From Meiothermus sp. Pnk-1 (GTDB lineage Bacteria; Deinococcota; Deinococci; Deinococcales; Thermaceae): DNA of 64,000 bases. Each line of letters begins with the position of its first letter. Position 1 is the stretch's first letter. The position numbers were made by a program, and so were the translations under genes. The stretch lies in assembly GCF_003226535.1 (NCBI RefSeq), contig NZ_QKOB01000004.1, forward strand, positions 124,001-188,000. Reading direction: 5' to 3'. This document shows, one piece after another, positions 5,991 to 38,347 of this stretch. A model generated the notes under the pieces. The model searched no databases, was not told the DNA's origin, and saw nothing but the letters and a program-made list of their open reading frames with translations.

Positions 5991-8900
5991 TCAAGGGTTC
6001 AGGGCCACCGCGTCCCCCGGCTCCGCGGCCGCAGGGTGGCTCGAGACCGCCGTGGATTCCAGCGGAAGACCCCAGAGCCGCGCTACCTGGATGGCCAGCA
6101 AACCCCCGGCCGGCTGCACCCAGCCTTCCACCACCAACACCGGGGCGCTCTGCACCGTTCGGGCGTAGCGCTCCCATAGCGGCGGGGCCAGGATGAGCTG
6201 GGCCAGCTGCGCGCCGTCCTCCACGACCACGAAAGCAAACCCTCGAGCCGAGGGGGGCTTTTGCAGAAACTTGAACAGGCCCGCGGTGCGCACCGGGCCT
6301 CCTCCCCGCCGTTGCAGCGAGACCAGGGGCTTGCAGCCCAGCTCGAGCAGCCTCGAGCGCATCAGATCCAGCGGGTGCAGGGCCAGCTCGCTATAGCCCT
6401 TGGTCTGGTAGTCCCAGGCCATGCGCTCGGGGAGTTCCAGGGGAGGCAGGGCCGGGGTGGGGGGCAGGGGAGCTTCCAGCCAGGGCCGCGCCCCTTTGGG
6501 GTGGGTCTGCAGCAGGGCCTGGGCCTGGTACAGCGCGGCGCGCCGGTCCAGCATGGCATCGAAGGCCCCCGCCCGTACCAGGTTCATCCACACATCGCGC
6601 GGCAGGGCCACCCGCTGGTAGCAGTCCTCGGGGGAGGCGAAGGGGCGCTCCAGCCGCTCCAGCAGGATGGCTTCGGCCTGGGTTTGCGACAGGCCCCGGA
6701 CGGCGGTGAGGGGGAGGCGTACCCCTTTGCCCTGGGGGGTTTTCTCGCAGCGGTAGTGCAAGCCGCTGTGGTTGATGTCCAGGGGCAGCACCGCGAAGCC
6801 CTGCCGGTGGGCCATCTGGCGCAGGGTGTCGGCCGGCCAGAAGCCCGGCCGTTCGCTCATGAACGCGGCCCAGTACTCAGCCGGGTAGTGCCGCCGCAGC
6901 CAGGCGCTGGCGTAGGCGTGCTGGGCGAAGGCGTGGGCGTGGGAGGCGCAGAAGCCGTAACCGCGAAACTCGGCCACCATCTGCCAGATGGCCCGGGCCT
7001 GCGCGGGGGTGGCCCCCAGGGTGCGCTCGACGGCCTGGATGAACTGCGCGGCCTCCGCCTCGAGCGGCTCTCCCTCCTCGGCGCGGGCGATTCGCTTGCG
7101 CAGCCGTTCGGCCTCGGGCCAGCTGTAGCCGGCACACTCGTGCAGGATGCGCAGCTGCTGGTCCTGGTAGAGCAGCACCCCCCGGGTCGGCCCCAGGATG
7201 GGGGCTAGGGCCGGGTGCACCACCGACTCGGCCTCCAGCCCCTGGGCCCGCCGCAGGTAGGGATGCACGGTGCCCGACTGGATGGGGCCGGGGCGGATGA
7301 GGGCGATCTGGTGGGCCAGCTCGGTCCGGCTGCGGGGCTTGACCCGGGGGGAGGTCTGCATCTGGGCCGGGCTCTCGAGCTGAAACAGCATCAGCGTATC
7401 GCCCGCCTCCAGCGCGTCCCAGACCGCCGCCTCGTCGGGCAGGCGGAAGAGGTCCAGCCACACCCCCTCGCTGCGGTATACCTCCTCCCGGGCCCGTTCC
7501 AGCACGCCCAGCATCCTCAGGCCCAGCAGGTCGCACTTGATCAGGCCCATCTGCTCGACCCCGTCCTTGTCCAGTTGCAGGTGTACGATCCCCCCGCTGC
7601 TCCTTTGCAGGGGGGAGTAGTGGGTCAGGGGGTGGGCGGAGAGCACCACCCCGCCGCTGTGGGGGGCCAGGTGGCGCACGTGGCCCGGCTCGATCTGCTC
7701 CAGCAGCCACAGCAGCACTTCCTTGAGCGGACTGTCCCCCAGAACCTCGTCAAAGACGGCCTGGGCCCGGCGGGCCTGGTGGGGCCGCAGGTGGCGGTAG
7801 TCGCGGCCCAGCCGCCGGCTCAGCGCGGTGCGCTGGTGCGCGGGCAGGTCCAGGGCCCGGCCCAGGTCCTGCAGGGCGGAGGGCAGCCGGTAGGTGATGT
7901 AGTTGGCGGTCATGGCCTCCCGGCGCCCTCCGCCGAAGCGCCTTTCCACCCAGGCCAGCACCTCGTCGCGGCGGTGGGAGGCCAGGTCGATGTCCACGTC
8001 GGGGGTGGAGCGCCGCCCGGCGTGCAGGAAGCGCTCGAAGAGGAGGTCGTGCGCCAGGGGGTCCACCTGGGAGATGCCCAGGGTATAGCAGACCAGGCTG
8101 CCGGCGGCGCTGCCCCGTCCGGCCGCCAGGATGCCGCGGGAGCGGCAGTAGTCCACGATCTCCGCCTCGAGCAGGAAAAAGCCGGCCATCTCCATCTCCT
8201 CCACCACCCCCAGCTCGTACTCCAGCCGGGCCCGGGCGGCCTCCCGCGCGCTGGCGGGATAGCGCTGCTCCAGCCCGGCATAGCACCGCTGGCGCAGGTA
8301 GGCCGGGGCCGAGAGCCCGGGCGGTAGCCGGGGCGGGGCGGTCTCCAGGCGCTCGGGTAGCAGCTCGAAGGCGCAGGCCTGGGCCAGCCGGGCGGTGTTG
8401 GCCAGGGCCTCGGGAAAGGGAAAGCGGTCGCGCAGCTCGGCCAGGGAGGGCAGGTACTGGGCATCGTTTCGGACCGCCTGGGGGTGCGGGGTGTGGACGC
8501 TGATGCCCAGCCGGGCCGCGGTGAGGGCCTCGTGCAAAGGGTAGAGGGACTGGACCGCGTAGCGCACCTCCGGGGCCGCCACCACCGGCAGGGAGAGCTC
8601 GCCGGCGTAGGCCCGCAAGGCCCGCACCCGCCGGTCATCCTCGGGGTAGAACTCGTGGAACAGCCCGATCCACAGCCGCTCCGCAAACGCCCTGCGCAGG
8701 GTGGAGAGCAGGCCCTGCAAAACCGCGGACTTTCGCGCGGCCAGCAGGCGGCTGACCGGCCCGGCCCGGCCCCCGCTGAGCAGGTGCAGGTCCTCGGCGT
8801 GGGCGAGCAGTTCCTCGAGCTCGACATAGGGGGTCTCCCGCTCCCGGGCCAGGGTGATGAGCTCGCCGAGGTGGCCATAGCCCCGCCGCGAGGCCGCCAG

Positions 8901-9164
8901 CAACACCACCGGATAGATCTGCGCCTGCACCCGAAGCGGCACGGTGGCCCCGGTGAGGGGCTGCAGGCCCAGGCCGCGGCAGGCCTGGTGCAGCTCCACC
9001 GCGCCCGCCAGCGAAAGCCAGTCGGTCAGGGCCAGCGCCCCGTACCCGAGTTCGGCGGCCCGCCGGGCCAGCCGGGAGGGGCTGCTCACCCCACCCCCCT
9101 CGGAAAAGTAGGAGTGCACGTGCAAGGCCGCGGGCTTCAGTCGAGAATCCGGGTCAGCACCCAT
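5991..9164 (-). CDS. dnaE2: Error-prone DNA polymerase III alpha-type subunit (DnaE2/ImuC-like)
   Basis: This is a C-family DNA polymerase of about 1057 residues. It begins with a PHP domain (LHVHSYF, His15 and His17) and continues with the polymerase core: the catalytic triad motif PDVDIDL at about residues 388-394, GRGSAAGSLVCYTLGISQVDPL, and IRPGPIQSG. The helix-hairpin-helix region (LTAVRGLSQTQAEAI) and a C-terminal OB-like region (PVLVVEGWVQPAGG) follow. At about 1060 residues it is the length of DnaE2/ImuC and shorter than replicative DnaE (about 1160-1250). The ATG at 9164 overlaps the end of the DUF6504 gene by 28 bases. Its position after a LexA-like gene, an ImuB-like gene and DUF6504 points to damage-induced translesion synthesis (inference from the known lexA-imuB-dnaE2 cassettes). 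Confidence 0.88.
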   Translation of the reverse strand: MGADPDSRLKPAALHVHSYFSEGGGVSSPSRLARRAAELGYGALALTDWLSLAGAVELHQACRGLGLQPLTGATVPLRVQAQIYPVVLLAASRRGYGHLGELITLARERETPYVELEELLAHAEDLHLLSGGRAGPVSRLLAARKSAVLQGLLSTLRRAFAERLWIGLFHEFYPEDDRRVRALRAYAGELSLPVVAAPEVRYAVQSLYPLHEALTAARLGISVHTPHPQAVRNDAQYLPSLAELRDRFPFPEALANTARLAQACAFELLPERLETAPPRLPPGLSAPAYLRQRCYAGLEQRYPASAREAARARLEYELGVVEEMEMAGFFLLEAEIVDYCRSRGILAAGRGSAAGSLVCYTLGISQVDPLAHDLLFERFLHAGRRSTPDVDIDLASHRRDEVLAWVERRFGGGRREAMTANYITYRLPSALQDLGRALDLPAHQRTALSRRLGRDYRHLRPHQARRAQAVFDEVLGDSPLKEVLLWLLEQIEPGHVRHLAPHSGGVVLSAHPLTHYSPLQRSSGGIVHLQLDKDGVEQMGLIKCDLLGLRMLGVLERAREEVYRSEGVWLDLFRLPDEAAVWDALEAGDTLMLFQLESPAQMQTSPRVKPRSRTELAHQIALIRPGPIQSGTVHPYLRRAQGLEAESVVHPALAPILGPTRGVLLYQDQQLRILHECAGYSWPEAERLRKRIARAEEGEPLEAEAAQFIQAVERTLGATPAQARAIWQMVAEFRGYGFCASHAHAFAQHAYASAWLRRHYPAEYWAAFMSERPGFWPADTLRQMAHRQGFAVLPLDINHSGLHYRCEKTPQGKGVRLPLTAVRGLSQTQAEAILLERLERPFASPEDCYQRVALPRDVWMNLVRAGAFDAMLDRRAALYQAQALLQTHPKGARPWLEAPLPPTPALPPLELPERMAWDYQTKGYSELALHPLDLMRSRLLELGCKPLVSLQRRGGGPVRTAGLFKFLQKPPSARGFAFVVVEDGAQLAQLILAPPLWERYARTVQSAPVLVVEGWVQPAGGLLAIQVARLWGLPLESTAVSSHPAAAEPGDAVALNP

Positions 9165-9379
9165 AGGCCGCTTCCCTCCTGGTGGTAGATCTCCAGGGTC
9201 AGACCGCCCTCCACCTCGACCCACCAGTAGGCGCGGGGGCCCTCGCCCAGCACCCAGCGGCCCTTGCTGCGCCAGCGCCTCACATAGCGCAGCACCTCCC
9301 GCCGCCGGCGATAGACCACCGCCCTCGGCCGCCCGTCGGGGTGGGAATCCACCGCGACCGCCCGGCCCACCCGGCGCAT
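9137..9379 (-). CDS. DUF6504-type small protein of the mutagenesis operon
   Basis: This is an 80-residue basic protein (MRRVGRAVAVDSHPDGRPRA ... YWWVEVEGGL ... LWVLTRILD). It matches what I know of DUF6504, a small family found beside Y-family polymerases. Its ATG at 9379 shares one base with the TGA of the ImuB-like gene (TGATG), which implies translational coupling. Its end overlaps the start of dnaE2. The same reading frame extends upstream to 9997, but that part is antisense-quality, proline/alanine-rich sequence inside the polymerase gene and is not coding. The molecular role is unknown. By position it could replace the ImuA/RecA-like partner of the proteobacterial cassette. Confidence 0.8.
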   Translation of the reverse strand: MRRVGRAVAVDSHPDGRPRAVVYRRRREVLRYVRRWRSKGRWVLGEGPRAYWWVEVEGGLTLEIYHQEGSGLWVLTRILD

Positions 9380-10563
9380 CAGGGACCCCCCTCTACCACC
9401 CGGACCCAGACCGCCTGCTGATCCGCGGCCAGGGCGTAGGGATCGAGCTCCCGCACCCGTACCAGCGTCCCGGGGAACCGCTCGGCCACCGCCCGGGCGG
9501 CCGCGCCCTGCGGGCGGCTTTCCCACAAGGCCCCCTGGACCCCCGGGCGGCGCAGGTCCGAGAGTTCGAGGGCGATCTGCTGCAAAGGGAGGCCCAACGC
9601 CCCGGTGTCTTCCAGGGTCCGCCGGGCCAGGCGGTAGATGGGGCCCGGCTGCTGGAGCGGGACTTTGCTCTGGCGGGCGGCCTGGAAGGGGCGGCCGCCG
9701 GCCCTCACCCGTACCGTCAGCCGGAAGGCGGCCTTGCCCTGGCGCCCTAGCGCAGCGGATAGCTGCTCGCTCAGGCGCCCGAGGGCCGGCTCGAACGCTA
9801 AAGGCTCTCGGGCGGCCTCGGCGAAGGTGTGCTGCGCCCGCAGGGTCGCGGGAATCCTGGCCCGGCCTACCCGGGGGCTCCAGGGACCCCACAGATAGGG
9901 CTGCAGAACCCGGTACTCCGGCAGCGTGCGCTCCAGCTGCGGCGCGCTCCACTGCCGCAGGTCCCCCAGGGTGCGCTGCCCCAGCTGGCCCAGCCACTCC
10001 AGCGAGTGCGCCCCCAGGCCCAGCCCCTTGAGCAGGTACAGCGGCAGCCGATCCGTCCAGCCCTTTTCCTCCCCCCGGGGCACTGCCCGCACCTGGCCGG
10101 GGTAGGCCGATAGCGCCGCCAGCAGGGCCACCTCGCGGTAGCCGGAAAAACCCACCCTCACCCCGTAGGCTTCCGCCAGCGCCCGCGCCGCTGCCGGGTC
10201 CAACCGCAGCAGCACCCGACCCGGGCGGAGCGGCTCGACCCAGGGGCTGTGGGCCGGCATCTCCTCCAGCAGCGTCTCCCAGGTGGCCTGCAGCAGGGGG
10301 GTGCCCAGCGGGACCAGGTGCAGCCCGGCCAGCCGGGCCCGGGCGGCCGCGCCCCGCATACCCGGGCTCACCCCGGCTTTGCGCGCCGCAGGGCTGAGCG
10401 CGATCACCCGGTCGCCTACCGTGACCGCTACCGGCTCCTGGGGCAGCCCCGGGTTCAGCCGGTAGGCCACATACAGCGGCCAGGGGTCAAACAGCAGGGC
10501 CGCGACCCCCTCCGCGGAGGGGCTGGGGTCCGGTGCTGGGGGGTGGGAACGGCTTTTGGACAT
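9379..10563 (-). CDS. ImuB-like Y-family DNA polymerase homologue
   Basis: This is a 394-residue protein of the DinB/ImuB family. It has the N-terminal palm/fingers region (LLFDPWPLYVAYRLNPGLPQEPVAV), a helix-hairpin-helix-type stretch (LYLLKGLGLGAHSLEWLGQLGQRTLGDLRQWS) and the little-finger domain. The catalytic carboxylates look incomplete. The DxD-type first motif reads FDPWPLY, so the second acidic position is Trp, and the SIDE-type motif reads RLDPAAA, with the Glu replaced by Pro. That matches ImuB proteins, which act as non-catalytic adaptors between the beta clamp and DnaE2 (established for ImuB). The ATG at 10563 has AAAGGAG just upstream. It is the first gene of a tightly overlapped three-gene unit. 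Confidence 0.85.
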   Translation of the reverse strand: MSKSRSHPPAPDPSPSAEGVAALLFDPWPLYVAYRLNPGLPQEPVAVTVGDRVIALSPAARKAGVSPGMRGAAARARLAGLHLVPLGTPLLQATWETLLEEMPAHSPWVEPLRPGRVLLRLDPAAARALAEAYGVRVGFSGYREVALLAALSAYPGQVRAVPRGEEKGWTDRLPLYLLKGLGLGAHSLEWLGQLGQRTLGDLRQWSAPQLERTLPEYRVLQPYLWGPWSPRVGRARIPATLRAQHTFAEAAREPLAFEPALGRLSEQLSAALGRQGKAAFRLTVRVRAGGRPFQAARQSKVPLQQPGPIYRLARRTLEDTGALGLPLQQIALELSDLRRPGVQGALWESRPQGAAARAVAERFPGTLVRVRELDPYALAADQQAVWVRVVEGGP

Positions 10564-10690
10564 GCTCCTTTTCTGCTATACTGGCAAGACCAATAGAAGA
10601 CCGCTCCGGGGCAGAACCCTGGGGTGCTAGAGGGGAGGGCGCGCGATGGCGGGCAGGCTGAACGCGCCCTCAAGTCATGGGCCGGGCGGG

Positions 10691-11332
10691 TTACATAACC
10701 ACCCCCAGGGTGCGCAGCAGGTGCTCGGGGCTTCGGCCGCGCAGCATGTACTCGAACACCCCCAGCAGACGTAGCTCCCTAGCCGGCAGGGTAAAGCTGG
10801 GATACGCCGGGTTATGCGGCTCCAGCAGGACCCTATCCCCCTGAAGGGTTACATACTTGAGGGTGGCCCGGCCGGTCTCCGCATCGGAGACCGCGCAGAT
10901 CTCCCGGGAGCGGGGCGGGCGGGCCACCTTGCGCACCACCACCACGTCTCCCACCAGGAAGAAATCGGCCATCGAGTCGCTGTCCACCACAAAAGCGCAG
11001 GCCTCGGGGCTGCCGGGTAGCTCGAGCAGGCCCAGGTTGTGCTGCACCGCCGGGGTCATCGGTCCCGCCGCGATGTAGCCCAGGACGGGGATGCCCTGGC
11101 CCAACAGCAGCTTTCCCTGGGGGGTGAGGACGATCTCGGAGCTGCGACCTTGGCCCCGCGAGAGGACCTCGAGCAGCCCCTTGCGCTCCAGCGCGCCCAG
11201 GTGCTGCCGCAAGGCCTGGTAGGAGTAGCCCAGTGCGGCGCTGAGTTCGGGCACGCTGGGCATGCGCCCGAGCTTCCGCTTCAGCGCGGACATCTTCTGG
11301 ACTACCTGCTGTTGGCCCCTGGTGAGTTGCAT
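10691..11332 (-). CDS. lexA: LexA-like autocleaving repressor (S24 peptidase)
   Basis: This is a 213-residue repressor with an N-terminal winged-helix domain (MPSVPELSAALGYSYQALRQHLGALERKGLL) and a C-terminal S24 peptidase fold. The LexA residues are all visible: the cleavage site Ala89-Gly90 (GYIAAGP), the nucleophile Ser120 (VDSDSMADF) and the general-base Lys159 (RATLKY). It should therefore self-cleave when RecA filaments form. The helix-turn-helix is divergent from E. coli LexA, so a different operator is expected. The gene lies 127 bases upstream of the ImuB-like gene on the same strand. The inverted repeat TGTAA-CC-TTACA, 17 bases before its ATG, is a candidate autoregulatory site. Confidence 0.85.
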   Translation of the reverse strand: MQLTRGQQQVVQKMSALKRKLGRMPSVPELSAALGYSYQALRQHLGALERKGLLEVLSRGQGRSSEIVLTPQGKLLLGQGIPVLGYIAAGPMTPAVQHNLGLLELPGSPEACAFVVDSDSMADFFLVGDVVVVRKVARPPRSREICAVSDAETGRATLKYVTLQGDRVLLEPHNPAYPSFTLPARELRLLGVFEYMLRGRSPEHLLRTLGVVM

Positions 11333-11348
11333 CCGGTATCCCTATGCC

Positions 11349-11360
11349 TGTAAGGTTACA
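11349..11360. promoter_or_regulatory. Candidate LexA-like operator
   Basis: A perfect 5-bp inverted repeat TGTAA-GG-TTACA lies just upstream of the LexA-like start codon. Its half-site TGTAACC (minus strand) recurs inside the gene at 10848-10854 and over its stop codon at 10688-10694, the last being about 125 bases before the ImuB-like gene. The assignment is speculative. Confidence 0.35.
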
Positions 11361-11361
11361 A

Positions 11362-11588
11362 GTATTTGGTTCGAGAATACGCGCAAGCACCGCCTGGGGT
11401 CAAGAGCGGTGGCCCTGTTCGCACAGGCATTTTGGGAACGGCGTTTCCCCTGCACCCTGCCCCTCGGAGCAGGGGGTTCTATGGGGTAGTCCGACGGGGG
11501 AAACTCCCGACGAACACCGGGGGCATCCGCCCCGCCAGGGAGGAGCGGGAAGCAGGGTGCCCGCCTGCCGATACGGCGACCGGGTCTA
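11362..11588. other. Structured non-coding stretch between lexA-like gene and IS element
   Basis: No gene is evident. The sequence is GC-rich and foldable: GGGAA/TTCCC at 11434-11449, CCCTGC/GCAGGG at 11455-11474 and several further complementary G- and C-runs to 11580. It may hold the lexA-like promoter (minus strand), the end of an older mobile element, or a small RNA. I cannot decide which. Confidence 0.3.
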
Positions 11589-12461
11589 GAGCCTGTTAGG
11601 TAGCCATACATAATAGGGGGGCTGCTTTTGCAAGCATCAGAATGGAGAAGGCTAACCAGTGGTAACCTTCGAGGGTCTGTGTGAGTCGCTCGTAATCCCG
11701 TGCCAATCGCCTGAAACGCGAGGTCCAGGCGAAGGAGCGCTCCACTGACCAACGCTTGGGCAGAAGCACGAAGCCTTTGCTGGCCCCTGGCTTCTTGACC
11801 ACTTCCAGATGGATACCCTGTTCCTGGGCGGCGGCTTCGGCCTCGGAACCGGTATAGCCCGGGTCGACAAAGGCGATCTCCACCCGCTGACCGGTGACCG
11901 CTTGGATCGCCTCGGCCAGGGCCGCCACCTGCTTGCGGTCATCCTCATTGACCGGAGTGCTGCTCAGGGCTGGCAGTTGCCCCAAGGTGTGCACACCGAT
12001 ATACACCTTGGTGCTTTTACGGCGCTTGTGCCCGTTGTACTTGGCGCGATGCCCGCTCTCCGGGGTGCTCTGCATCACCCTCGAGTCCAGAACCGCTCTG
12101 CTAGGTTGAGCCGGTTTGTCCCTGTGCAATCTCAGGATCTCTCGCAGGCCGTGCACAATGTTCTCAAAGCAGTGGTTCTCGATCCAGCGTCGGGTCTGTT
12201 CGTAGATCACCCGCCAGGGAGGGAAGTCGTGGGGCATGAGCTCCCACTGGGCCCCGCTGCGCACCCACCCGCGCAGGGCGCCCCCACCTCGCGCAAGTCG
12301 TACTCAGACCGTTTTGCGTCCAGTGGTAAGAGCGTCAGATAGGGCACGACCAGGCTCCACTCTTCATCGCTCACGTCGCTGAGGTAGGGCTTTCGCCTCG
12401 AGTTCATCATGTCCCGAACATAACCGGTAGCCTATGTTTGGATAAGATTCCCAACAGCCTC
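11589..12461 (-). mobile_element. IS5-family insertion sequence, 873 bp
   Basis: The left end GAGCCTGTTAGG (11589-11600) and the complement of the right end, GAGGCTGTTGGG (12450-12461), form terminal inverted repeats matching at 10 of 12 positions. The element is flanked by TA on both sides (11587-11588 and 12462-12463) within CTAG-like contexts, the target typical of one IS5 subgroup. The transposase is in two frames. A related but clearly different element lies at 57149-58049. Confidence 0.85.
11596..12410 (-). pseudogene. IS5-family transposase, frameshifted
   Basis: The transposase is split over two frames: 12410-12207 (MMNSRRKPYLSDVSDEEWSL ... DLREV) and 12264-11596 ([13 protein letters not shown] onwards). 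The catalytic DDE residues are all in the second part ([30 protein letters not shown]). Alignment to the intact relative at 57200-58042 shows that a -1 shift at the run of five G (12285-12281, minus strand) restores an exactly collinear protein. This is either a one-base deletion or a site for -1 frameshifting. The stop codon lies inside the left terminal repeat. Confidence 0.8.
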
Positions 12462-22388: not shown

Positions 22389-24047
22389 ATGATCAAGACT
22401 TCTGACCCCATCACGCTCGAGATCATCCAGAACTCACTGCAGGCTATCAGCGATGAGATGTTCGCGGCCATGCGCAAGACCGCCATGAGCGCCATCATCT
22501 ACGAAGTGTTGGACATGGGCACCGGTATTACCGATGGGCAGGGGCAGATGGTGACTTCGGGTGCGGGGATTCCTTCTTTTGTAGGGGTATTGGACAAAGC
22601 GGTCCAGCGCATTCTCGATATCCATTCGGGTGACATCCAGCTCGGCGATGTATTTGTTACTAATGACCCCTACTACGGAGGCGTCACTCATCTCAACGAC
22701 GTGGTGTTGGCCATGCCGGTGTTTGCCGGTGGGGAGCTGGTCGCTTGGACCGCTAACATCGCCCACTGGAACGATGTTGGAGGGATGGTCCCAGGTTCGA
22801 TGTCGAGCAGCGCGACCGAGATTTTCCAGGAGGGGTTGCGCTTGCCAGCGGTCAAGATCATCGAAGAGGGCAAGCCGATCCAGTCGGTGATAGAGATCAT
22901 GAAGGCCAATAGCCGCCTGCCGGATTTTCTAGAGGGTGACCTATGGGCGGGGATCGCTGCTGTGCGGATTGGTGAGAGGCGAATTCTAGAGCTGGTCGAG
23001 AAGTACGGGGTGGAGACGTTCAAAATCGCTCTCGAGCAATACCTTGACTATGGCGAGCAGGTAGCGCTTGCTGCGCTTGCAACCCTTCCCAAGGGAAGGT
23101 TCAGTCTCGAGGAAGAGCAGGAAAACGGAGCCATCTACAAAGTGGTGGTGGAGATCAGCGACCGCACGTTCACCGTGGACCTGCGGGACAACCCACCCCA
23201 GGATAAAGGTCCCTACAACACCTCGAGGGACGGTGCCCTGGTTTCGACCCAAATGATCTTCAAGGCTATTACCGATAGTAGCCGCACAGCCAATGCTGGG
23301 CATTTTCGACCCCTGCGCCTGCTGACCATGCCCGGCACGGTCTTTGACGTGCAGGAACCGGGAGCCTCTGGGTATATCTTCGAGGTGCGAATGCGTTTGT
23401 ACGACTTGATCTGGCGCTGCTTGGCACCACACCTGGGGCCTGAGCGCTTGCCGGCAGGCCACTTCGCTTCGATTTGTGGGACTGTGATTGGCGGGACCCA
23501 CCCGGACACTGGGCGGTACTTCACCATCGTAGAGCCACAGATTGGGGGCTGGGGGGCATCGGCCTGGAGTGATGGGATCAGTGCCACTTACAGCGCCGTT
23601 CATGGGGAAACCCTTCGGTGCCCCGTGGAGGTAGCTGAGGTCAGGTATGGCCTCTACGTTGACCAGCTCAGGCTAAACGACGAGCCGGGCGGCGAAGGGC
23701 AATATCGCGGGGGCAAGGGCATTGTGCTGGACTACCAGGTGCGCTCAGACAATTGCTTCCTTACCCTTTCCTATACTCGCAGCAAGTTCAAGCCTTGGGG
23801 GTTGAAAGGTGCGCGAGAAGGTTCGGCTAATTATGTAGAGATCATTCGCGGCGATGGGCGACGCGAGATGTACTCTACAGTCACATCCTTGAGGCTCTAC
23901 AAAGGTGACGTGATCCGAATCTACACTGCCAATGGAGGGGGCTACGGAGATCCACGGAAACGTTCCAGAGATAAGGTACTCGAAGACCTCAAGAATGGTT
24001 ATATCGCCAAAGAGCAGGCCAGAGATGTTTATGGGCTTGAGGTGTAG
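22389..24047 (+). CDS. hyuB: Hydantoinase/oxoprolinase subunit B (HyuB type)
   Basis: This is the 552-residue partner of HyuA, with the family opening DPITLEIIQNSLQAISDEM, then DMGTGITDGQGQMVTSGAGIPSF, VTNDPYYGGVTHLNDV and the glycine-rich C-terminal GGGYGDPRKR. The ATG at 22389 follows a strong GAAGGAGGTGG; the frame is open 18 bases further upstream but only through the ribosome-binding site. It is the last gene of the operon starting at 12654. Together the A and B subunits open a lactam or hydantoin ring with ATP in characterised members. Confidence 0.93.
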   Translation: MIKTSDPITLEIIQNSLQAISDEMFAAMRKTAMSAIIYEVLDMGTGITDGQGQMVTSGAGIPSFVGVLDKAVQRILDIHSGDIQLGDVFVTNDPYYGGVTHLNDVVLAMPVFAGGELVAWTANIAHWNDVGGMVPGSMSSSATEIFQEGLRLPAVKIIEEGKPIQSVIEIMKANSRLPDFLEGDLWAGIAAVRIGERRILELVEKYGVETFKIALEQYLDYGEQVALAALATLPKGRFSLEEEQENGAIYKVVVEISDRTFTVDLRDNPPQDKGPYNTSRDGALVSTQMIFKAITDSSRTANAGHFRPLRLLTMPGTVFDVQEPGASGYIFEVRMRLYDLIWRCLAPHLGPERLPAGHFASICGTVIGGTHPDTGRYFTIVEPQIGGWGASAWSDGISATYSAVHGETLRCPVEVAEVRYGLYVDQLRLNDEPGGEGQYRGGKGIVLDYQVRSDNCFLTLSYTRSKFKPWGLKGAREGSANYVEIIRGDGRREMYSTVTSLRLYKGDVIRIYTANGGGYGDPRKRSRDKVLEDLKNGYIAKEQARDVYGLEV

Positions 24048-24190
24048 GAGGTGTAGATAGATATCGGCTGTCTGGATGTGAAGGGCTCGATCACGTGAAG
24101 GCTGCCCTGAACTTTATGCGCCTGCGGAAATTTGAACTTGCGGCCCGACCTCCTGAGGCTCCCGCTGGAACCCTCGGCCTATAACGAGTA

Positions 24191-24219
24191 TTGACAGGCC
24201 CTATTCCGCTGTCTACACT
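24191..24219 (+). promoter_or_regulatory. Sigma-70-type promoter of the IclR/second Dpp operon
   Basis: A perfect TTGACA (24191-24196), a 17-base spacer and TACACT (24214-24219) lie 28 bases upstream of the IclR start codon, giving a short leader. The start region holds the small palindrome GAAC-GTAT-GTTC (24241-24252) covering the ATG, which could be an operator. Confidence 0.65.
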
Positions 24220-24246
24220 ATTTTTACTTTCCGATATACAGAACGT

Positions 24247-25041
24247 ATGTTCTATTCAGTGGAACAACCCGTCCCTCAGTCCGGAGATAACCCCGGGGCC
24301 CTCGATAAGCTCCTGATTACGTTGCTGGCCTTTGAACAGCAGCCCTGTTGGAGGTTGAGCGATCTTGCACGAGCCCTCAAGATTCCTAAGGGAACCATGC
24401 ACCGGCTCCTCCTAAAGCTAGTTTCGTATGGCTTTCTGTATCGACAGCCCGCGACTGAGGCCTACTGCCTGGGGTCAAGAATCAGGGTACTGGCTGCTCG
24501 GGGCTGGCCATTTCAGTTCTTGTCCGACTTCGCTCATCCTTATCTGGAACAGTTAGCCCTAACTACGGGTGAAACCGCCTTTCTAACTGTTGTAGAGGGG
24601 TTTTACTGCTTGTGCGTGGGCCGGGTGGAAGGAAATCAGCCCTTGCGGTTGACCATGACTGTGGGCGAGAAATCCCCTCTACATCTGGGGGCTTCCAACC
24701 AGATCATGCTCGCCTACCTCCCCGAATCTACCCAAGCCGAGATATTAAGGTACTGGATCCCTGAGGAATCCCGACGGCTCGAGATGCAGGAAACCCTCAA
24801 AAGCATTCGGAAGAATGGGCACATCTACACCGCTGGACAGCTCACCCCCGGAGTAGCTGCACTGGGAGTTCCTGTGCTGGATGAGGCACATAACCTGCTG
24901 GCTGGACTGAGTCTCGCAGGACCTGCCGATCGCTTTTCAATCGAAGTAGCGTATAAGACTTTACCTCTTCAACAACAAGCGGCGTCGGCCATCGCCAGGG
25001 AGTTGAAAAGATTGAGCCCTCAAAGCAACGGCCAGAGATAG
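24247..25041 (+). CDS. IclR family transcriptional regulator
   Basis: This is a 264-residue IclR regulator. The winged helix (RLSDLARALKIPKGTMHRLLLKLVSYGFL, first residue adapted) precedes the effector domain with TTGETAFLTVVEGFYCLCVGR, KSPLHLGASNQIMLAYLPE and LSLAGPADRF. It starts at ATG 24247 shortly after a near-consensus promoter; no clear Shine-Dalgarno is seen. The binding-protein gene follows after 15 bases, so the regulator is the first gene of the second transporter operon. Self-control and control of the DUF917/DUF1177/AroM genes are likely (inference). Confidence 0.92.
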   Translation: MFYSVEQPVPQSGDNPGALDKLLITLLAFEQQPCWRLSDLARALKIPKGTMHRLLLKLVSYGFLYRQPATEAYCLGSRIRVLAARGWPFQFLSDFAHPYLEQLALTTGETAFLTVVEGFYCLCVGRVEGNQPLRLTMTVGEKSPLHLGASNQIMLAYLPESTQAEILRYWIPEESRRLEMQETLKSIRKNGHIYTAGQLTPGVAALGVPVLDEAHNLLAGLSLAGPADRFSIEVAYKTLPLQQQAASAIARELKRLSPQSNGQR

Positions 25042-25056
25042 GGAGGTGTTGAGGAC

Positions 25057-26667
25057 ATGCGAATGACACGGATATTTTGGTTGGCTAGCGTTCTAGTGTG
25101 GGTAGTCCTAATAGGGAGTGTACAGGCCCAAGTCACGTTCACTTACCTGGAGGGGCAGGAAATACCTACCATCGACCCCGCCAAGCATACTGATGAGAGT
25201 TCAATGCATGGTGTAATTAACCTGTACGATCCACTACTCTACCCTAAGGTGTCACAGGGTTCTATGGCTCCGGGGCCTCATGTAGCGGAATCTTGGAAAG
25301 TAGATCCCGATGGGCGGACTTATACTTTCAAGATTCGCAGGGGTATCAAATTCCATGATGGAACTGAACTCACGGCCGATGACGTGGTTTTCTCGATGCA
25401 GCGAATGCTGGCCCTGAAAAAAGGGTTCTCCTGGCTGTGGCTGAATCTTTTGGACCCCAAGGACGTCAAGGCCCTGGATCGCAACACCGTGCAGTTTAGG
25501 TTGTCCCAGCCTTTCGCCCCCTTCCTCTCCACTTTGACTCAGCTATTCGTGGTCAACAAAAAGCTGGTGCTAGCTAATAAAAAGGCGGGACCTTATGGCG
25601 ATAACGGCGACTACGGCGAGGCCTATCTGACCAATGCGGAGGCTGGGTCAGGACCCTTCCAGCTCAGCAGCTACGAGCGTTCGACAATCCTCGAACTCAA
25701 GCGCTTCCCCGACTACTGGAGGGGCTGGAAGCCTGGGCAGATAGAGAAGGTGGTGTACCGCGTGGTTAAGGAAGAGGCCACTATGCGTACGCTTCTCACC
25801 AGCGGACAGGCGGACATGATTGATCAATGGCGTACCCCTGTGACTTACGAACAGCTAGCAAAGGCCCCGGGTGTCGTGGTAGATGAGAAGCCCAGTGCCC
25901 AACTTTTTCATATCCAGATGAACACCCAGCGAACTCCGCTCAACAACATCCACGTGCGCAAGGCCATTGCGATGGCCTTCGATTACGACACCGCCATAAA
26001 GCAGATTTTTAAAGGAGCGCTCCAGGCCAGAGGTCCGGTGCCCTTAGCGGCCTGGGAATCCTACGATATAAGTAGCAAAGATCTGGATAAGTATGGGATC
26101 GTAGCTTACAAGTACGATCTCGAGGGAGCCAAAAAGGAACTGCAACTCTCCGGCTTCAAGCCTGGCCAGATCCAGCTCAACTATGTCTTTCCCGAAGGCG
26201 GCAACTTGCAGCGCCAGGCCGGGTTACTGTTACAAAGTAGCCTCAACCAGCTTGGCATCAAGCTAAACCTGCAGGAGCTTCCCTGGGCTCGAATTGTGGA
26301 GATGTCAGCTTCCGAGTCTAGCACACCGGATCTGGCAGCCATTTTTGATACCCTCAAGTACCCCCATCCGGATAGCCACACTTACGGCATGTACCACCCG
26401 AGTGCCTGGGGAAGCTACCGCACCATTAGCCGCTACAGCTACCCTGTTGTGACAGCCCTCCTGGAGCGGGCACGGCGGGCTACGGATCCTGAAAAGCAGA
26501 TGGAACTCTATCTCCAGGCTACGGGTCTGGTCGTTAAGGACTATCCAAGTATTTACGTGGCGAACCCCATGCACCGCGTAGCTTTGCGTGATAACGTCAA
26601 AGGCTACCGCTACGTGGGGCTTCTAGGCTACGATGTGGCTTTCTATGATTTCACCGTGAGTAGGTAA
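25057..26667 (+). CDS. Dpp/Opp-type ABC transporter substrate-binding protein
   Basis: This is a second family 5 binding protein, 536 residues, with signal peptide ending VQAQ. It resembles the one at 13543 throughout (for example KFHDGTELTADDVVFSMQRM and the ANKKAGPYGDNGDYGEAYL block), so the two are paralogues and may bind similar solutes. GGGAGGTG lies 14 bases upstream of the ATG at 25057. It works with the two permeases encoded next. No ATPase gene is present in this operon. Confidence 0.93.
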   Translation: MRMTRIFWLASVLVWVVLIGSVQAQVTFTYLEGQEIPTIDPAKHTDESSMHGVINLYDPLLYPKVSQGSMAPGPHVAESWKVDPDGRTYTFKIRRGIKFHDGTELTADDVVFSMQRMLALKKGFSWLWLNLLDPKDVKALDRNTVQFRLSQPFAPFLSTLTQLFVVNKKLVLANKKAGPYGDNGDYGEAYLTNAEAGSGPFQLSSYERSTILELKRFPDYWRGWKPGQIEKVVYRVVKEEATMRTLLTSGQADMIDQWRTPVTYEQLAKAPGVVVDEKPSAQLFHIQMNTQRTPLNNIHVRKAIAMAFDYDTAIKQIFKGALQARGPVPLAAWESYDISSKDLDKYGIVAYKYDLEGAKKELQLSGFKPGQIQLNYVFPEGGNLQRQAGLLLQSSLNQLGIKLNLQELPWARIVEMSASESSTPDLAAIFDTLKYPHPDSHTYGMYHPSAWGSYRTISRYSYPVVTALLERARRATDPEKQMELYLQATGLVVKDYPSIYVANPMHRVALRDNVKGYRYVGLLGYDVAFYDFTVSR

Positions 26668-26690
26668 GCCAGACTGGGGAGGGGCTGACG

Positions 26691-27695
26691 GTGGGTGCCC
26701 ATGAATTCGCTATCCGAAGATTAGTCCAGTTGGTCCCTACCCTCCTCGGCCTCTTGGTCCTGATATTCTTGATCGCTCGGGTGATGCCGGGCGATCCCGT
26801 GCGTTTGGCTCTTGGCCCCGAGGCTACTGCTGAGCAAGTCGCAGCCCTGCGGAACCAATTAGGCCTGGACCAGCCCTTGCCGGTTCAGTTTGTCAACTAC
26901 TTGATTGGCTTGGTACGGGGAGATTTCGGTGTATCCCTACGCACCCTGCGCGGAGTTGGATCAGACATCGCGGGATTGCTCCCGGCTACGCTCGAGCTGG
27001 TTACTGTATCGCTGCTTTTTTCGATTCTGTTGGGGGTTACCGCAGGGATTTTCTCGGCGCTCTATCAGAACAGCTGGGTGGATAACCTGGTACGGCTGAC
27101 CTCGATCTCGGGCGTGGCTCTGCCTCGTTTTTGGGTCGGCATCCTGTTCCAGATCTTCCTAGCCTCCAAGCTCGGCCTATTCCCCATCATCGGCCGAGCG
27201 GCCGCCCCCATTCATGGGCCAACAGGCTTCTATACCCTCGATGCCCTGTTGGCTGGGAACCTACCGGGATTCTTCGACTCCCTATGGCACCTCGTTCTTC
27301 CCGCCCTGACCCTTGCCCTTCCTACCGCAGCTCAGCTGGCTCGGCTGAGCCGGGCTAGCATGATCGAGGTGCTCAGACAGCAGTACGTTCTGGTGCACCG
27401 AGCATATGGTGTTCCGACCTCAAGATTGGTGCTGCGCTATGCCCTGCGCAACAGTCTCACTTCGGTACTCACCTTGCTGGGCCTGAGCTTTGGTTCTTTG
27501 ATCGAGAACGCCTTTTTGGTGGAGGTGGTGTTTTCCTGGCCGGGGATCTCGGCCTATGGCGCAGCAGCTGTTCTGGCTAAAGACTTCAATGCAGTTGTAG
27601 CGGTGACGCTGATCGTCGGGTTGGCTTTTATGCTGGCCAATCTGATTGTAGACCTGCTCTACGGAGTGCTGGATCCAAGAGTGCGCTATGACTGA
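26691..27695 (+). CDS. ABC transporter permease, DppB type
   Basis: This is a 334-residue inner-membrane permease, paralogous to the one at 15255. It has the N-terminal signature LIARVMPGDPVRLALGPEA, the loop VHRAYGVPTSRLVLRYALRN and the ending DPRVRYD. It starts at GTG 26691 after GGGGAGGGG, and its end overlaps the next permease gene by eight bases. It forms the channel with the DppC-type protein. Confidence 0.93.
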   Translation: MGAHEFAIRRLVQLVPTLLGLLVLIFLIARVMPGDPVRLALGPEATAEQVAALRNQLGLDQPLPVQFVNYLIGLVRGDFGVSLRTLRGVGSDIAGLLPATLELVTVSLLFSILLGVTAGIFSALYQNSWVDNLVRLTSISGVALPRFWVGILFQIFLASKLGLFPIIGRAAAPIHGPTGFYTLDALLAGNLPGFFDSLWHLVLPALTLALPTAAQLARLSRASMIEVLRQQYVLVHRAYGVPTSRLVLRYALRNSLTSVLTLLGLSFGSLIENAFLVEVVFSWPGISAYGAAAVLAKDFNAVVAVTLIVGLAFMLANLIVDLLYGVLDPRVRYD

Positions 27696-28551
27696 GGCAG
27701 TTCGTCAAAAGGTACCCTCGCGGGTACTCCGGCGATTCTTACGCAGCCCGCTTTCGCTGGTGGGTGTGGTTGTCGTGACAGCAACGCTGATATGTGCACT
27801 TCTAGCTCCCTGGGTCGCTCCCTATCCCCAAGATGCGGGGGCGGTGGTGCATTTTGACCAGTCTATGCAAGCTCCCAGTGTTGCTCACTGGTTCGGTACG
27901 GACGAGGTGGGCCGTGATATCCTCTCCCGCGTGATTTTTGGCACACGGCCTGCCCTCCTCTTCGTAATAGTAGTACTAGGTATTGCCTTGACCGTGGGCA
28001 TTGTCACTGGATTGGTAGCTGGATATTGGCCTGGCAGTCGTCTTGCCGCCCTGATCTTACGAGTGACCGATATTTTCCTGTCTATTCCACCTCTAGCCTT
28101 GGCACTTGCGGTGACTGTGGCTTTCAATCCCAGCCTGGCGACAGCCATGATTGCGGTGTCTTTTACCTGGTGGCCTTGGTATACCCGGTTGGTTTACGGT
28201 GAGGTTCTCAAACTTCGTAACGAGCTGTTTGTAGACGCGGCAAGGGCCTTGGGACAGAGAGATTCAGTCATCATGTTGCGGCATATCCTTCCCAACATGA
28301 TCTCTCCTATCGTGGTCAAGGCTACGCTAGACATCAGCTTCGTGATCCTCTTGGGAAGCAGCTTGTCCTTCCTAGGCATTGGTGCACAAGAACCCACGCC
28401 GGACTGGGGAGCCATGGTAGCTAGGGGTCGGGTATATCTGCCCGATGGCTGGTGGGTCAGCACCATGCCCGGCCTAGCCATATTCGTGGTAGTAGTAGGC
28501 TTCAACCTACTAGGCGATGCACTGCGTGATGCGTTGGACGTGCGGAGTTGA
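27688..28551 (+). CDS. ABC transporter permease, DppC type
   Basis: This is a 287-residue permease. The pattern is RFLRSPLSLVGVVVVTATL, then VAHWFGTDEVGRDILSRVIFG, the loop VDAARALGQRDSVIMLRHILPN and the C-terminal GFNLLGDALRDALDVRS. It overlaps the preceding gene by eight bases. In the paralogous operon the same position is followed directly by two ATPase genes; here a DUF917 gene follows instead. The importer presumably borrows ATPases encoded elsewhere. Confidence 0.93.
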   Translation: MTEAVRQKVPSRVLRRFLRSPLSLVGVVVVTATLICALLAPWVAPYPQDAGAVVHFDQSMQAPSVAHWFGTDEVGRDILSRVIFGTRPALLFVIVVLGIALTVGIVTGLVAGYWPGSRLAALILRVTDIFLSIPPLALALAVTVAFNPSLATAMIAVSFTWWPWYTRLVYGEVLKLRNELFVDAARALGQRDSVIMLRHILPNMISPIVVKATLDISFVILLGSSLSFLGIGAQEPTPDWGAMVARGRVYLPDGWWVSTMPGLAIFVVVVGFNLLGDALRDALDVRS

Positions 28552-28579
28552 GCTGAAAGGGAAATCTGGAGGAATTTCC

Positions 28580-29644
28580 ATGATTGTAATTGACCGGGAG
28601 ACAGCAGAAGCCCTGGCTCTAGGTGGAGGCGTGCTCGGGGCAGGCGGAGGTGGGAACTGGCGTGAGGGATTGCGCTACCTACAGTTGGCCATGGAAATTG
28701 GACGGCCACACCTGGTGAGCCTGGATGCTCTGCCGCCCGAAGCTACCGTTGTGACGGTCTCGGGGGTGGGGTCTCCGGCCGCTACCGAGCGAGACGTACG
28801 GGTTTCAGATTACCTGGAGGCCCTCGAGTTGCTGATAGAGAGGGCAGGAATTCAGCCTGGCGGTCTCATTTCTTCGGAGAACGGCGGGGCTTCCTCAGCC
28901 AACGGCTTCGTGCAGTCGGCCCTCACCGGCATCCCGGTGGTGGATGCCCCGGCTAATGGCCGGGCCCACCCCACAGGGGTGATGGGATCCATGGGTTTAC
29001 ACCGCCTACCGGGTTATCTGGCTCGGCAAACTGCAGTTGGTGGAACCCCTGAGCGCCGAGTGTGCCTCTATGTTGAGGGAAGTTTAGCTTCGGTGGATCA
29101 CGTTGTCCGGCAGGCCGCCGTGTCTGCTGGTGGGCTGGTGGCAGTGGCGCGCAACCCGGTGGCTGCTGATTACGTGCGTGAGAACGGGGCTCCGGGGGCC
29201 CTTACATTGGCTATTGAATTGGGCCGGTTGATCCTTTCCCATAAGGACCAGGGTGGAATGCGCCTAGCAGAGGTCCTCCTCGAGTACTTTGGTGCTGGAG
29301 AATGTTTGGGGCCAGCTATAGTTCAAGAAGTGGCACTCGAGACCAGGGGTGGCTACGATATTGGTCAAATCCGAATTGGCGAGGCTGAAACCCGCTTCTG
29401 GAACGAATTTATGACTGTGGAGATATCAGGGGTACGCAAAGCTAGCTTCCCCGACTTGATTTTTGCCCTAGGGGCCGAGGATGGGCTTCCGTACAATACT
29501 GCCGAGTTGCGGCCCGGGAATGAGGTGGTACTGGTATGGATATCTAAAGAGCGGCTGCCCTTGGGGACAGGGGTGCGTGGACCTGACGCGCTCAAAAGTG
29601 TGGAAACAGCTCTTGGTGTTTCTCTTACCACACAGGAGGCGTGA
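28580..29644 (+). CDS. DUF917 family protein
   Basis: This is a 354-residue DUF917 protein. The family features are LALGGGVLGAGGGGNWREG near the start, SENGGASSANGFVQSALTGIPVVDAPANGRAHPTGVMGS in the middle, and a glycine-rich C-terminal half. The ATG at 28580 follows GGAGG; the frame is open upstream into the permease gene, but only as overlap. DUF917 proteins have been linked to S-methyl-thiohydantoin desulfurase-type activity and occur with hydantoinase-like genes. The precise reaction here is unknown. Its stop codon overlaps the start of the DUF1177 gene (TGATG). Confidence 0.88.
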   Translation: MIVIDRETAEALALGGGVLGAGGGGNWREGLRYLQLAMEIGRPHLVSLDALPPEATVVTVSGVGSPAATERDVRVSDYLEALELLIERAGIQPGGLISSENGGASSANGFVQSALTGIPVVDAPANGRAHPTGVMGSMGLHRLPGYLARQTAVGGTPERRVCLYVEGSLASVDHVVRQAAVSAGGLVAVARNPVAADYVRENGAPGALTLAIELGRLILSHKDQGGMRLAEVLLEYFGAGECLGPAIVQEVALETRGGYDIGQIRIGEAETRFWNEFMTVEISGVRKASFPDLIFALGAEDGLPYNTAELRPGNEVVLVWISKERLPLGTGVRGPDALKSVETALGVSLTTQEA

Positions 29645-30585
29645 TGCTCAAGCAGGTTTTGCAGGTATTGGATGTACTGGATGACCCCTTGGCTTCAGGA
29701 GAGGCTGTGGCTGCCCTCTTCCGCTCAGTGGACTCCGGAATGCATGTGGAGGTGCAGAGAGTTGCCGGGGATAGGGGGTTCACAGAGTTCGTAAAGGTGC
29801 GCTTTCCTGGCAGCGCAGGCAAGATCAAGGGGGGATCATCGCCTACTCTCGGGATTATCGGGCGTTTAGGGGGTATTGGGGCCCGTCCCCATAAAGTGGG
29901 CCTGGTATCCGATGCCGATGGGGCCGCTGCTGCCCTCAGTGCCGGGCTTAAGCTAGCAGAAATGGCTCGCCGGGGTGATTGGCTCCAGGGAGATGTGATC
30001 GTAGCTACTCATGTCTGCCCTAATGCACCCATGATCCCGCATGAACCAGTGCCCTTCATGGGTTCGCCAGTGGACATGCTAACTATGAACCGCTACGAGG
30101 TAGACCCGCAGATGGACGCCATTCTCAGCATCGACACTACTCGGGGTAACCGCATTTTGAACCGCAAAGGCATCGCCATCACACCCACTGCCAAGGAAGG
30201 CTGGCTCCTGCGCCCAAGCCCTGACCTGTTGGGGATTCTTGAGCGGGTGACCGGGGAACTACCGGCGGTGCTTCCCCTCTCCATGGCCGACATCACCCCC
30301 TACGGCAACGGGGTTTACCACATCAACAGCCTAATGCAACCGGCCACGTCCACCTCTGCGCCTGTGGTGGGGGTGCCGATCACCGCACAGACCGTAGTGG
30401 CTGGCAGCGCTACGGGAGCCAGTCACGAGGTAGATATTGCTCTGGCTGCCCGATTTGCTCTGGAGGTGGCTAAGGACTTTGGCGCAGGTCTGGCCCGCTT
30501 CTACGACCCGGGCGAGTTCGATCGGTTGGTGGCACTTTACGGCGAGATGCGTCAACTGCAGACCTTGGGGAGTCAAAAAACGTGA
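29644..30585 (+). CDS. DUF1177 family protein
   Basis: This is a 313-residue protein of the DUF1177 type, recognised from VRFPGSAGKIKGG, GIIGRLGGIGARP, VGLVSDADGA, GDVIVATHVCPNAPMIPHEPVPFMGSP and DITPYGNGVYHINS. Several His, Asp and Glu residues in these blocks could bind metal, but the function is not established. It starts at ATG 29644 after AGGAGG, coupled to the DUF917 stop, and overlaps the AroM-family gene by four bases. Tight coupling of DUF917, DUF1177 and AroM suggests one pathway. Confidence 0.85.
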   Translation: MLKQVLQVLDVLDDPLASGEAVAALFRSVDSGMHVEVQRVAGDRGFTEFVKVRFPGSAGKIKGGSSPTLGIIGRLGGIGARPHKVGLVSDADGAAAALSAGLKLAEMARRGDWLQGDVIVATHVCPNAPMIPHEPVPFMGSPVDMLTMNRYEVDPQMDAILSIDTTRGNRILNRKGIAITPTAKEGWLLRPSPDLLGILERVTGELPAVLPLSMADITPYGNGVYHINSLMQPATSTSAPVVGVPITAQTVVAGSATGASHEVDIALAARFALEVAKDFGAGLARFYDPGEFDRLVALYGEMRQLQTLGSQKT

Positions 30586-31256
30586 GAATTGGCTTAATCA
30601 CGATTGGTCAATCCCCTCGAGATGACCTAGTGCCAGACCTGCGACCTTTGCTGCCGGGTGTGGAGATCATCGAGCGGGGGGCGCTGGATGGCTTGAGCCC
30701 AGAGGAACTCGCCGGGCTTGCTCGAGACCCCAGAGGTAGTCTGCTGGTCACCCGATTGCGGGATGGCCAGGGGGTGGTGGTAGGGAAGACCGACCTGCTT
30801 CCTAAGGTCAGGGCCTGCGTAGAGCAGCTTGCTGAGGAGGGCGTAGATTTGATAGGGCTGCTGTGTACTGGCTCATTCCCGCCCTTTAGCGTTGGAGCCC
30901 CGGTGCTTTACCCCGAGCGCCTACTCATGCACTTCGTAGCCGCTGTCAGCCAGGGTAGCCGCGTAGGAATCCTCACTCCGGAAGCAGGCCAGATGGCTGA
31001 TCAACACCGGCGCTGGGCTAGAGCTGGACTGGCCGATCTTGAGGTGGCCCCAGTCAACCCCTACACGCCCGACAGCGCTCGACAGATTCGCGAGGCCGCA
31101 GAGCGGCTGGCGGCCTGGAAGGCCGACTTAGTGGTGATGGACTGCCTCGGCTATACCGAGGTCATGCGCCAAGTTGTTCGCAAAAAGCTTCGACGGCCGG
31201 TAATTCTAGCTAGGACTGTGCTGGCGCGAGCCATTGCAGAACTGCTCAGCCTCTAG
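30582..31256 (+). CDS. AroM family protein
   Basis: This is a 224-residue protein of the AroM family. The opening MRIGLITIGQSPRDDLVPDL is characteristic, followed by LLCTGSFPPF, a conserved Cys likely in an Asp/Glu racemase-like fold, and MDCLGYTEVMRQVVR with a second Cys, as in cysteine-dependent racemases. The name comes from the aromatic biosynthesis operon of E. coli, but no role in that pathway is proven. A racemase-like or isomerase activity on the imported compound is a reasonable guess. It starts at GTG 30582 within the end of the DUF1177 gene and is the last gene of the operon. Confidence 0.85.
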   Translation: MRIGLITIGQSPRDDLVPDLRPLLPGVEIIERGALDGLSPEELAGLARDPRGSLLVTRLRDGQGVVVGKTDLLPKVRACVEQLAEEGVDLIGLLCTGSFPPFSVGAPVLYPERLLMHFVAAVSQGSRVGILTPEAGQMADQHRRWARAGLADLEVAPVNPYTPDSARQIREAAERLAAWKADLVVMDCLGYTEVMRQVVRKKLRRPVILARTVLARAIAELLSL

Positions 31257-31338
31257 CGCTAATGCGCAAAATTCCTTCCTTCGTGTGCTACCTCATATCT
31301 CCATCCCGGCCATCTTGTTGCTTTACCTGAAGGGCAAG

Positions 31339-32998
31339 CCCACATTCCGCACCCCCCTTACCCCAGGAGGTAATATCGCTGTGCCCCCAGCAGGCGCACC
31401 GCGGTTTCGTGATGGGGGGCCAGGTTCAGCACCAGGGGCCGGTCGTCCAGCCAGGCCAGGCGCACCCAGATGAAGAGCTGGAAGACCCAGCGCAGGGTGG
31501 GTCTTTGGGTAGGCTTGCCCTTCTGGTTCGGCAGGCTGGATGCCGTTTCTTCAAGCCGCTGCCGCAGCTCCCACTCCCCCAGGGCGTACACCAAAAGGGC
31601 CAGGGCCATCACCATCCCCAGGGCCATCACCCGCTCGGGCCGCTTCAGGAAGGTGCTCCCCGTGAAGAACAGGGGGTCTTTTAGAAAACGGAACCCCCGC
31701 TCCACCGTCCGGGCCTGGTCCTTGTACCGCCCCAGCACCTCCCCGGCCGGCAGGGCCTCCCGGTCTAGGACGTCCGTGGCCAGGAGGAAGCGCCCCAGCC
31801 CCCGCCTCGCCCGCTCCAGCTTCCCCTCGTCCACCTCCAAGCGGGCCAGGAGACGGTAGTGCACCGCCACCGGGGCCTCCCCCTTCCTCGGACGCCCCAC
31901 CCTCCCCCGCCGCCTTTCCTCCCGCACCCCCAGGTACACCAGGCGGTGGTAGGGAAGCCCCCGGCTCACCCCCTCCAGGGCCTTCCAGGCGTCCGCCTCG
32001 CAAGAGAACTCCCGGGCTAAAAGCCTCCCCAGGGCCTTCCGGGCTTCCCCCTCCGCCCGCGCCACCCGCCGCCAGAGGCCTTCCTCCTCCGCCCTGGCCC
32101 GCTCCTGGCTCTCCAAGAGGAGCCAGCGCTGCCTCACTCCCCCGTACGCCCTCTCCACCTCCACCCCCGGTACCCCGGGAGAAGAGGGATCCAGGCTGCC
32201 TCAGGAAACTCCCCCTCCAGGAGGGCCCGGGCCTCCCGCAAGGTGGCGGGGACCCGCAGGACCCAGGAGAACCCCTCTAGGGCCCTGAGGTTCTCCCGGG
32301 TGTAGTTCGCCCCGTCCAGCACCCCCACCGCCCCTAGCTCCAGGCTCTGGCGGTAGCGGGCTAATAGAGGCACCAGGGCCTCCTGATCTGACTGGTTTCC
32401 ATCCCCGGGGGCAAAGAGCAGCGGTATCCCCCCGGTGTCGGCGCAGACCAGGTTCATCACCCACTGCTGGAGGTCGGGGCGGTGGTCCCGGCTGTAGCCG
32501 TGGGTGATGCGGATAGCCCCGGCCTCTTCCTCCGTCCCCTCGTACCGCCCGTGCACGTGAAAGCGGGTGGCGTCCACATGCAGGGCCCGCACCGGGAAGG
32601 GAAAGGCCTGGCGGGCCCTCTTGGCCACCTCCAGGAACACCTCGGTGACCCCCGCCTCGTAGAGGCTGTCCAGCATCCGGCCCATACGGTCGTCGTTCAA
32701 AAGCTCGGGAGTGACGCCCTCCCCCAGGAGCCACTCCGTGGGTTTACCCTCCCAGTAGTGGCCGAAGAGGTAGAGGGGGGAGGTGACAAAGCCCAGAGCG
32801 TTCAGGATGGCGGCCTTGAGGGCCACCCCCGTGCTCACCTTTTCTCCCAGGCGGGGGCCTATCCGTTCGTCCACCAGGGGGACCAGCCCAATACGGTCCA
32901 CGATGCCGGCTACCAGGCCCAGGTGGCCGAGGTCGTACACCTGTAGGTCTTCCATCCCAAAATCCTAACGCAGGGGGAGGAGGGGTGCGGAATGTGGG
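31339..32998 (-). mobile_element. IS1634-like insertion sequence, 1660 bp
   Basis: Perfect 17-bp terminal inverted repeats bound the element: CCCACATTCCGCACCCC at 31339-31355 and its complement at 32982-32998. Inside is a frameshifted transposase on the minus strand. No matching target duplication is seen outside the ends, so a later rearrangement or target drift is possible. Its codon use is strongly G-rich and Thermus-like compared with the flanking genes, which suggests transfer. Confidence 0.85.
31358..32955 (-). pseudogene. IS1634-family transposase, frameshifted
   Basis: The N-terminal part (32955-32134, MEDLQVYDLGHLGLVAGIVD) and the C-terminal part (32164-31358, starting MEVERAYGG) together make a protein of about 530 residues of the IS1634 transposase type. 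DDE-fold blocks include LHVDATRFHVHG, GVLDGANYT and ERGFRFLKDP. The frames join at a run of five G (32168-32164, minus strand); one extra G gives YRGVEVERAYGG without a break. It may be a deletion in a homopolymer or a frameshift site. Confidence 0.8.
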
Positions 32999-33018
32999 TC
33001 GCGTATCACGTTTTTTGA

Positions 33019-35107: not shown

Positions 35108-35112
35108 CGTTT

Positions 35113-36590: not shown

Positions 36591-36591
36591 C

Positions 36592-38333: not shown

Positions 38334-38347
38334 GGAAACAACCTGTA

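Follow-up and report, generated by a model that had tools for sequence, protein, structure and literature searches.

Does the 64,000-nucleotide (nt) stretch of DNA from Meiothermus sp. Pnk-1 shown above (hereafter the window) encode a working system of damage-induced mutagenesis? The question is raised by four genes, lexA, imuY, imuB-C and dnaE2, which exactly fill the interval 5991-11332 on the minus strand (Table 1). A sequence-only reading had taken them for a mutagenesis cassette under LexA control that includes ImuB-like and DnaE2 proteins. This core reading is supported, as the same four-gene order is found in Deinococcus, and we conclude that the locus is very probably a complete and probably functional Deinococcus-type lexA-imuY-imuB-C-dnaE2 SOS mutagenesis cassette.

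In Deinococcus, the sister group, cassettes of this type are well documented, and mutants exist for D. deserti and D. ficus. D. deserti shows no ultraviolet (UV) mutagenesis when ImuY, DnaE2 or RecA is lacking, and RecA-dependent damage induction and UV mutagenesis have been demonstrated for Deinococcus only (PMC8072749). The earlier statement that inducible mutagenesis is poorly described in the Thermus group therefore stands in part: we found no description of this cassette for Thermus or Meiothermus in the literature searched, but the cassette type itself has already been described, so that novelty is limited to the Thermaceae part. The new points are modest and consist of the presence in Thermaceae, a dedicated predicted operator, indications of transfer between genera, and a private intergenic element.

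The four genes and their products

The coordinates of the three overlapping genes that had been reported to follow lexA proved exact, with overlaps of 1 nt between imuY and imuB-C (TGATG) and 28 nt between imuB-C and dnaE2; lexA and imuY are spaced by 127 nt. LexA consists of a winged helix-turn-helix domain and an S24 protease domain (Pfam LexA_DNA_bind, expectation value (E) 1.7e-6; Peptidase_S24, E 4.7e-13). In alignment with E. coli LexA it retains the Ala89-Gly90 cleavage site and the Ser120/Lys159 dyad, which bears out the intact cleavage and catalytic residues noticed earlier. The protein is 86% identical to that of M. luteus and about 48-50% to Thermus orthologues, and scores 69 bits with the NCBIfam model TIGR00498, under the cut-off of 111. 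DnaE2 reaches 762 bits with PRK05672, the error-prone polymerase, as compared with 575 bits with PRK05673 DnaE; the former score falls below the PRK05672 cut-off of 939 bits. Its catalytic Asp triad (D389, D391, D545) is retained in the alignment with E. coli DnaE.

ImuY matches the Pfam families IMS (E 4.7e-8) and IMS_C (E 1.1e-7). A sequence search of the PDB gave no match, and Foldseek with the ImuY model retrieved structures of DinB, Dbh and Dpo4 (E about 1e-14), which indicates a Y-family fold; the predicted local distance difference test (pLDDT) of this model is 67, highest in palm and thumb. In the hhalign alignment, D103/E104 of E. coli DinB correspond to G115/R116 in ImuY, and because these catalytic carboxylates are lost, ImuY is predicted to lack polymerase activity. 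The first motif, in the place of DinB D8, reads LLFDPWP, a position just beyond the hhalign range and read by extension. The C-terminus carries Q343-GALW, which we take, by analogy with ImuB, to be a sliding-clamp-type motif: L346 and an aromatic residue at 347 are present in 17 of 17 homologues and Q343 in 15 of 17, with QLSLW in L008. Behind it, at the place expected for a RecA-NT motif, lies the helix-strand segment AAARAVAERFPGTLVRV (residues ~355-371).

We infer damage induction, LexA cleavage, complex formation and mutagenesis from the Deinococcus work and published models. LexA would occupy its own operator, immediately behind the operon promoter; damage to the DNA would load RecA, the RecA filaments would provoke LexA self-cleavage, and the operon would be transcribed. 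ImuY would then serve as the platform, contacting the sliding clamp via QGALW, probably RecA via its C-terminal RecA-NT-like segment, and also ImuB-C and DnaE2, the latter copying past the lesion in an error-prone manner. RecA would be the presumed stand-in for ImuA.

Table 1. Features of the cassette in the window
Feature	Position	Strand	Basis and assignment
lexA (213 amino acids)	10691..11332	-	Pfam and NCBIfam; alignment to E. coli LexA structures; probable SOS repressor of the cassette
imuY (394 amino acids)	9379..10563	-	IMS/IMS_C; predicted catalytically dead Y-family polymerase (iPolY / ImuB without C-terminal domain)
imuB-C / DUF6504 (80 amino acids)	9137..9379	-	Homology to D. deserti DUF6504; probable stand-alone counterpart of the ImuB C-terminal domain
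dnaE2 (1057 amino acids)	5991..9164	-	PRK05672; predicted error-prone C-family polymerase
Predicted lexA-operon promoter TTGACC-18-TATTCT	11374..11403	-	Promoter scan; sigma-70-like
Predicted LexA operator CTTGTAA-CC-TTACAGG	11346..11362	-	Inverted repeat; core TGTAACCTTACA at 11349-11360
lexA-imuY intergenic element, 127 nt	10564..10690	-	9-bp inverted repeat GAGGGCGCG...CGCGCCCTC

Known cassettes and the place of ImuA

The loci of D. deserti (plasmid 1), D. ficus (pDFI3) and D. grandis (pDEGR-1) have the same gene set, gene order and 80-residue protein as the window, with identities of 28-31% for LexA, 34-41% for ImuY, 34-37% for the small protein and 49-51% for DnaE2; for D. deserti the values are 37% for ImuY (E 3e-52) and 51% for DnaE2. 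The D. deserti cassette also shares the position of this DUF6504/ImuB-C protein between imuY and dnaE2, the imuY/imuB-C overlap and the lack of imuA. It differs in its host, which is Thermaceae for the window, in its operator, and in its lexA-imuY gap, which is 2 bp instead of the 127-nt element.

Several observations weigh against the reading of the locus as a cassette of the Deinococcus type. The 80-residue protein matches DUF6504 (PF20114) with 18.3 bits, under the cut-off of 24.2, and a whole-genome family search at the cut-off does not pick it up as DUF6504; its beta-rich model is of low confidence (pLDDT 60), and Foldseek with this weak model gave no meaningful match. When the ImuY C-terminus was compared by profile with 14 RecA N-termini, the match fell in the expected register and was not significant, 32 of 200 shuffles scoring as high. 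Also, the identity between the LexA proteins of the window and of D. deserti is only about 29%, and the operators differ, so that regulation is not proven by homology. Despite the sub-threshold score, the earlier naming of the small protein as DUF6504 is correct, because its positional counterpart in D. deserti matches DUF6504 above the cut-off, at 30.0 bits, and the two are 34% identical over the full length (E 1.8e-11). A seven-way alignment of the small protein also underlies this assignment.

The sequence-only reading went further and let DUF6504 replace the ImuA/RecA-like partner, an idea that has to be corrected. Published work identifies the small protein as ImuB-C, a C-terminal domain that has split off from ImuB, rather than as a RecA homologue (PMC8072749), and stand-alone ImuB-C is reported with RecA as the presumed substitute of ImuA (PMC8072749, PMC6511836, PMC12926913). 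As this work equates the 80-residue protein with stand-alone ImuB-C, the window would hold an ImuB split into ImuY and ImuB-C, with ImuA absent. The class of inactive PolY, ImuB-C, DnaE2 and presumed RecA has been treated more widely (PMC6511836, PMC12926913); the DnaE2X-iPolY-ImuB-C-RecA class (PMC12926913) and the Kyrpidia tusciae operon (PMC6511836) combine an inactive PolY, a stand-alone ImuB-C and DnaE2 in a genome without ImuA, which the window matches in gene content.

The canonical imuA-imuB-dnaE2 cassettes of Caulobacter, Mycobacterium and Pseudomonas likewise place a dead Y-family scaffold and DnaE2 under LexA, but their ImuB has a fused ImuB-C and is partnered by ImuA, whereas window ImuY ends before the separate small gene and no imuA is found above cut-off. 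The dead Y-family protein beside DnaE2, so like ImuB, could be taken as a sign of such a canonical cassette with its ImuA encoded elsewhere or replaced by DUF6504. We give this reading next to no credence, since the 3.51-Mb genome encodes no ImuA above cut-off: NF033429 matches only RecA and RadA, both below its cut-off, and PF00154 picks out a single RecA besides one RadA-like protein. The size of the DUF6504 protein, its beta-rich model and its published identity as the ImuB C-terminal domain (PMC8072749) also argue against it. The Deinococcus-type cassette, in which RecA presumably takes the place of ImuA, offers a compact system in which to ask whether this substitution is real. The genome further encodes a single Y-family protein, ImuY, together with two DnaE proteins and one full-length LexA homologue.

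Predicted promoter and operator, and probable reach of LexA

The predicted operator overlaps the lexA promoter region directly before lexA, and both promoter and operator are invariant across the window, M. luteus and the Meiothermus-group genome G027, whereas DNA farther upstream shows chance-level identity (37 and 36% to M. luteus and G027, respectively). The Thermus orthologues carry CCTGTTATATAACAGG in the operator position. The pattern YTGTWANNTWACAR has one exact match in the genome, which is the lexA operator site, and at one mismatch it has 8 sites, the background level given by the 6 sites of the backwards control; the pattern was partly built from the lexA site, and the independent evidence is its conservation across genera. 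As the exact site is unique, LexA is probably confined to its own operon through this predicted operator. A candidate second operator at the lexA stop, GGTTATGTAACC, was rejected, as its letters encode VVM-stop and it is disrupted in G027.

Several targets are the rule for proteins of the LexA family, which would favor a LexA that regulates repair genes more widely in the SOS response, with the cassette as just one target. The single exact operator-type site and the one-mismatch count at control level make this unlikely, as does the precedent of D. deserti, in which recA induction is governed by IrrE/DdrO rather than LexA (PMC8072749). A LexA dedicated to its own cassette accordingly remains our reading of the regulation.

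Distribution, probable transfer and the intergenic element

ImuY homologues at E <= 0.001 were found in 39 of 111 genomes of the phylum, a few of them being fragments or spurious. Genome contigs were scanned with an alignment of Thermaceae sequences only, the 17-sequence alignment being too diverse. The match in genome G031 was discarded as spurious, as it lies antisense to an FtsH-like gene. Within the family, complete four-gene operons are found in M. luteus KCTC 52599 (L055) and in Thermus, all with intact reading frames. ImuY occurs in seven Thermus genomes, including T. altitudinis, T. brockianus and T. caliditerrae (cassettes L056, L058 and L059 complete). The cassette of T. brockianus GE-1 lies on megaplasmid pTB1 at 149-151 kb (L063/L066); in the annotation of the pTB1 record, imuY is stretched across the part that encodes ImuB-C, which has no gene entry of its own. 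A Deinococcus SOS mutagenesis system with tested mutants is thus extended to the thermophilic Thermaceae, including T. brockianus, of which genome and megaplasmid are sequenced.

DNA identity of the window to M. luteus is 85.6% and ends at the cassette edges. For this genome pair, identical codons at conserved residues amount to 68-78% in the cassette, 53.5% in dnaE1 and 50.0% in recA, and because of this higher share the cassette is, for this pair, younger than the core genes, which points to a transfer between two Thermaceae genera. Such exchange would suggest that inducible mutators are passed around among hot-spring bacteria as accessory modules. On the ImuY and DnaE2 tree, the Meiothermus-group, Thermus and Deinococcus cassettes form separate clades, as expected if the cassette is old in the phylum and has since been lost in places and sometimes transferred.

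Has the cassette, once acquired by transfer, fallen out of use as a decaying or silent remnant? Its spread is patchy: it was not found in the congener G023 and is absent from most Meiothermus and Thermus genomes. An IS4/5-type transposase gene (window 11596-12264) lies upstream of the cassette promoter and lexA, and in G027 all that is left is an intact lexA with its operator and an imuY cut after about 48 codons (L060 1550-2578, contig 53). Against this, the window has four open reading frames with intact active sites, the promoter and operator are conserved across genera where the DNA farther upstream has drifted to chance, and DnaE2 is 88% identical to its M. luteus counterpart, which points to selection on the cassette. 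We therefore consider a remnant very improbable and retain the complete, probably functional cassette. The imuY stub of G027 is joined to sequence that resembles the end of a ComM/Mg-chelatase-like gene.

The sequence-only reading was silent on the 127 nt that separate lexA from imuY. This element is found in three Meiothermus-group cassettes only, those of the window, M. luteus and G027, and no convincing score was obtained in any other of the 111 phylum genomes; the Thermus cassettes, with their CCTGTTATATAACAGG-type operators, lack it, whereas the window has both the element and a different operator. Its conservation to M. luteus and G027 (80 and 69%) is coding-like when compared with that of lexA (85 and 65%). 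Rfam gave no match for the element, and its folding is no more stable than that of shuffled sequences (z -0.73 to -0.05), so that an RNA structure beyond the shared hairpin is unsupported. One may speculate, as a possibility that we consider doubtful, that the Meiothermus-group cassette is a self-contained mobile mutator module, with its own LexA that regulates nothing else and a private element that separately tunes the mutasome genes as an attenuator, an RNA hairpin or a second regulatory site, and that its movement among thermophile genera does not depend on the host repair regulon.

Some minor observations concern the surrounding DNA and the compared genes. Much of the window looks accessory, as positions 24000-43900 have almost no counterpart at the DNA level in G023, a genome of the same genus, or in two Meiothermus genomes. 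The recA match of a same-family genome (G050:C1:727112-727896) lies in two frames, which may reflect a frameshift or a sequencing error, and the recA matches of G081 and G083 (L084, L085, L088, L089) end after about 55 residues, perhaps at inserted elements or contig ends. The replicative DnaE1 (L003, G000:C28:2699-6421) holds an intein with a LAGLIDADG domain.

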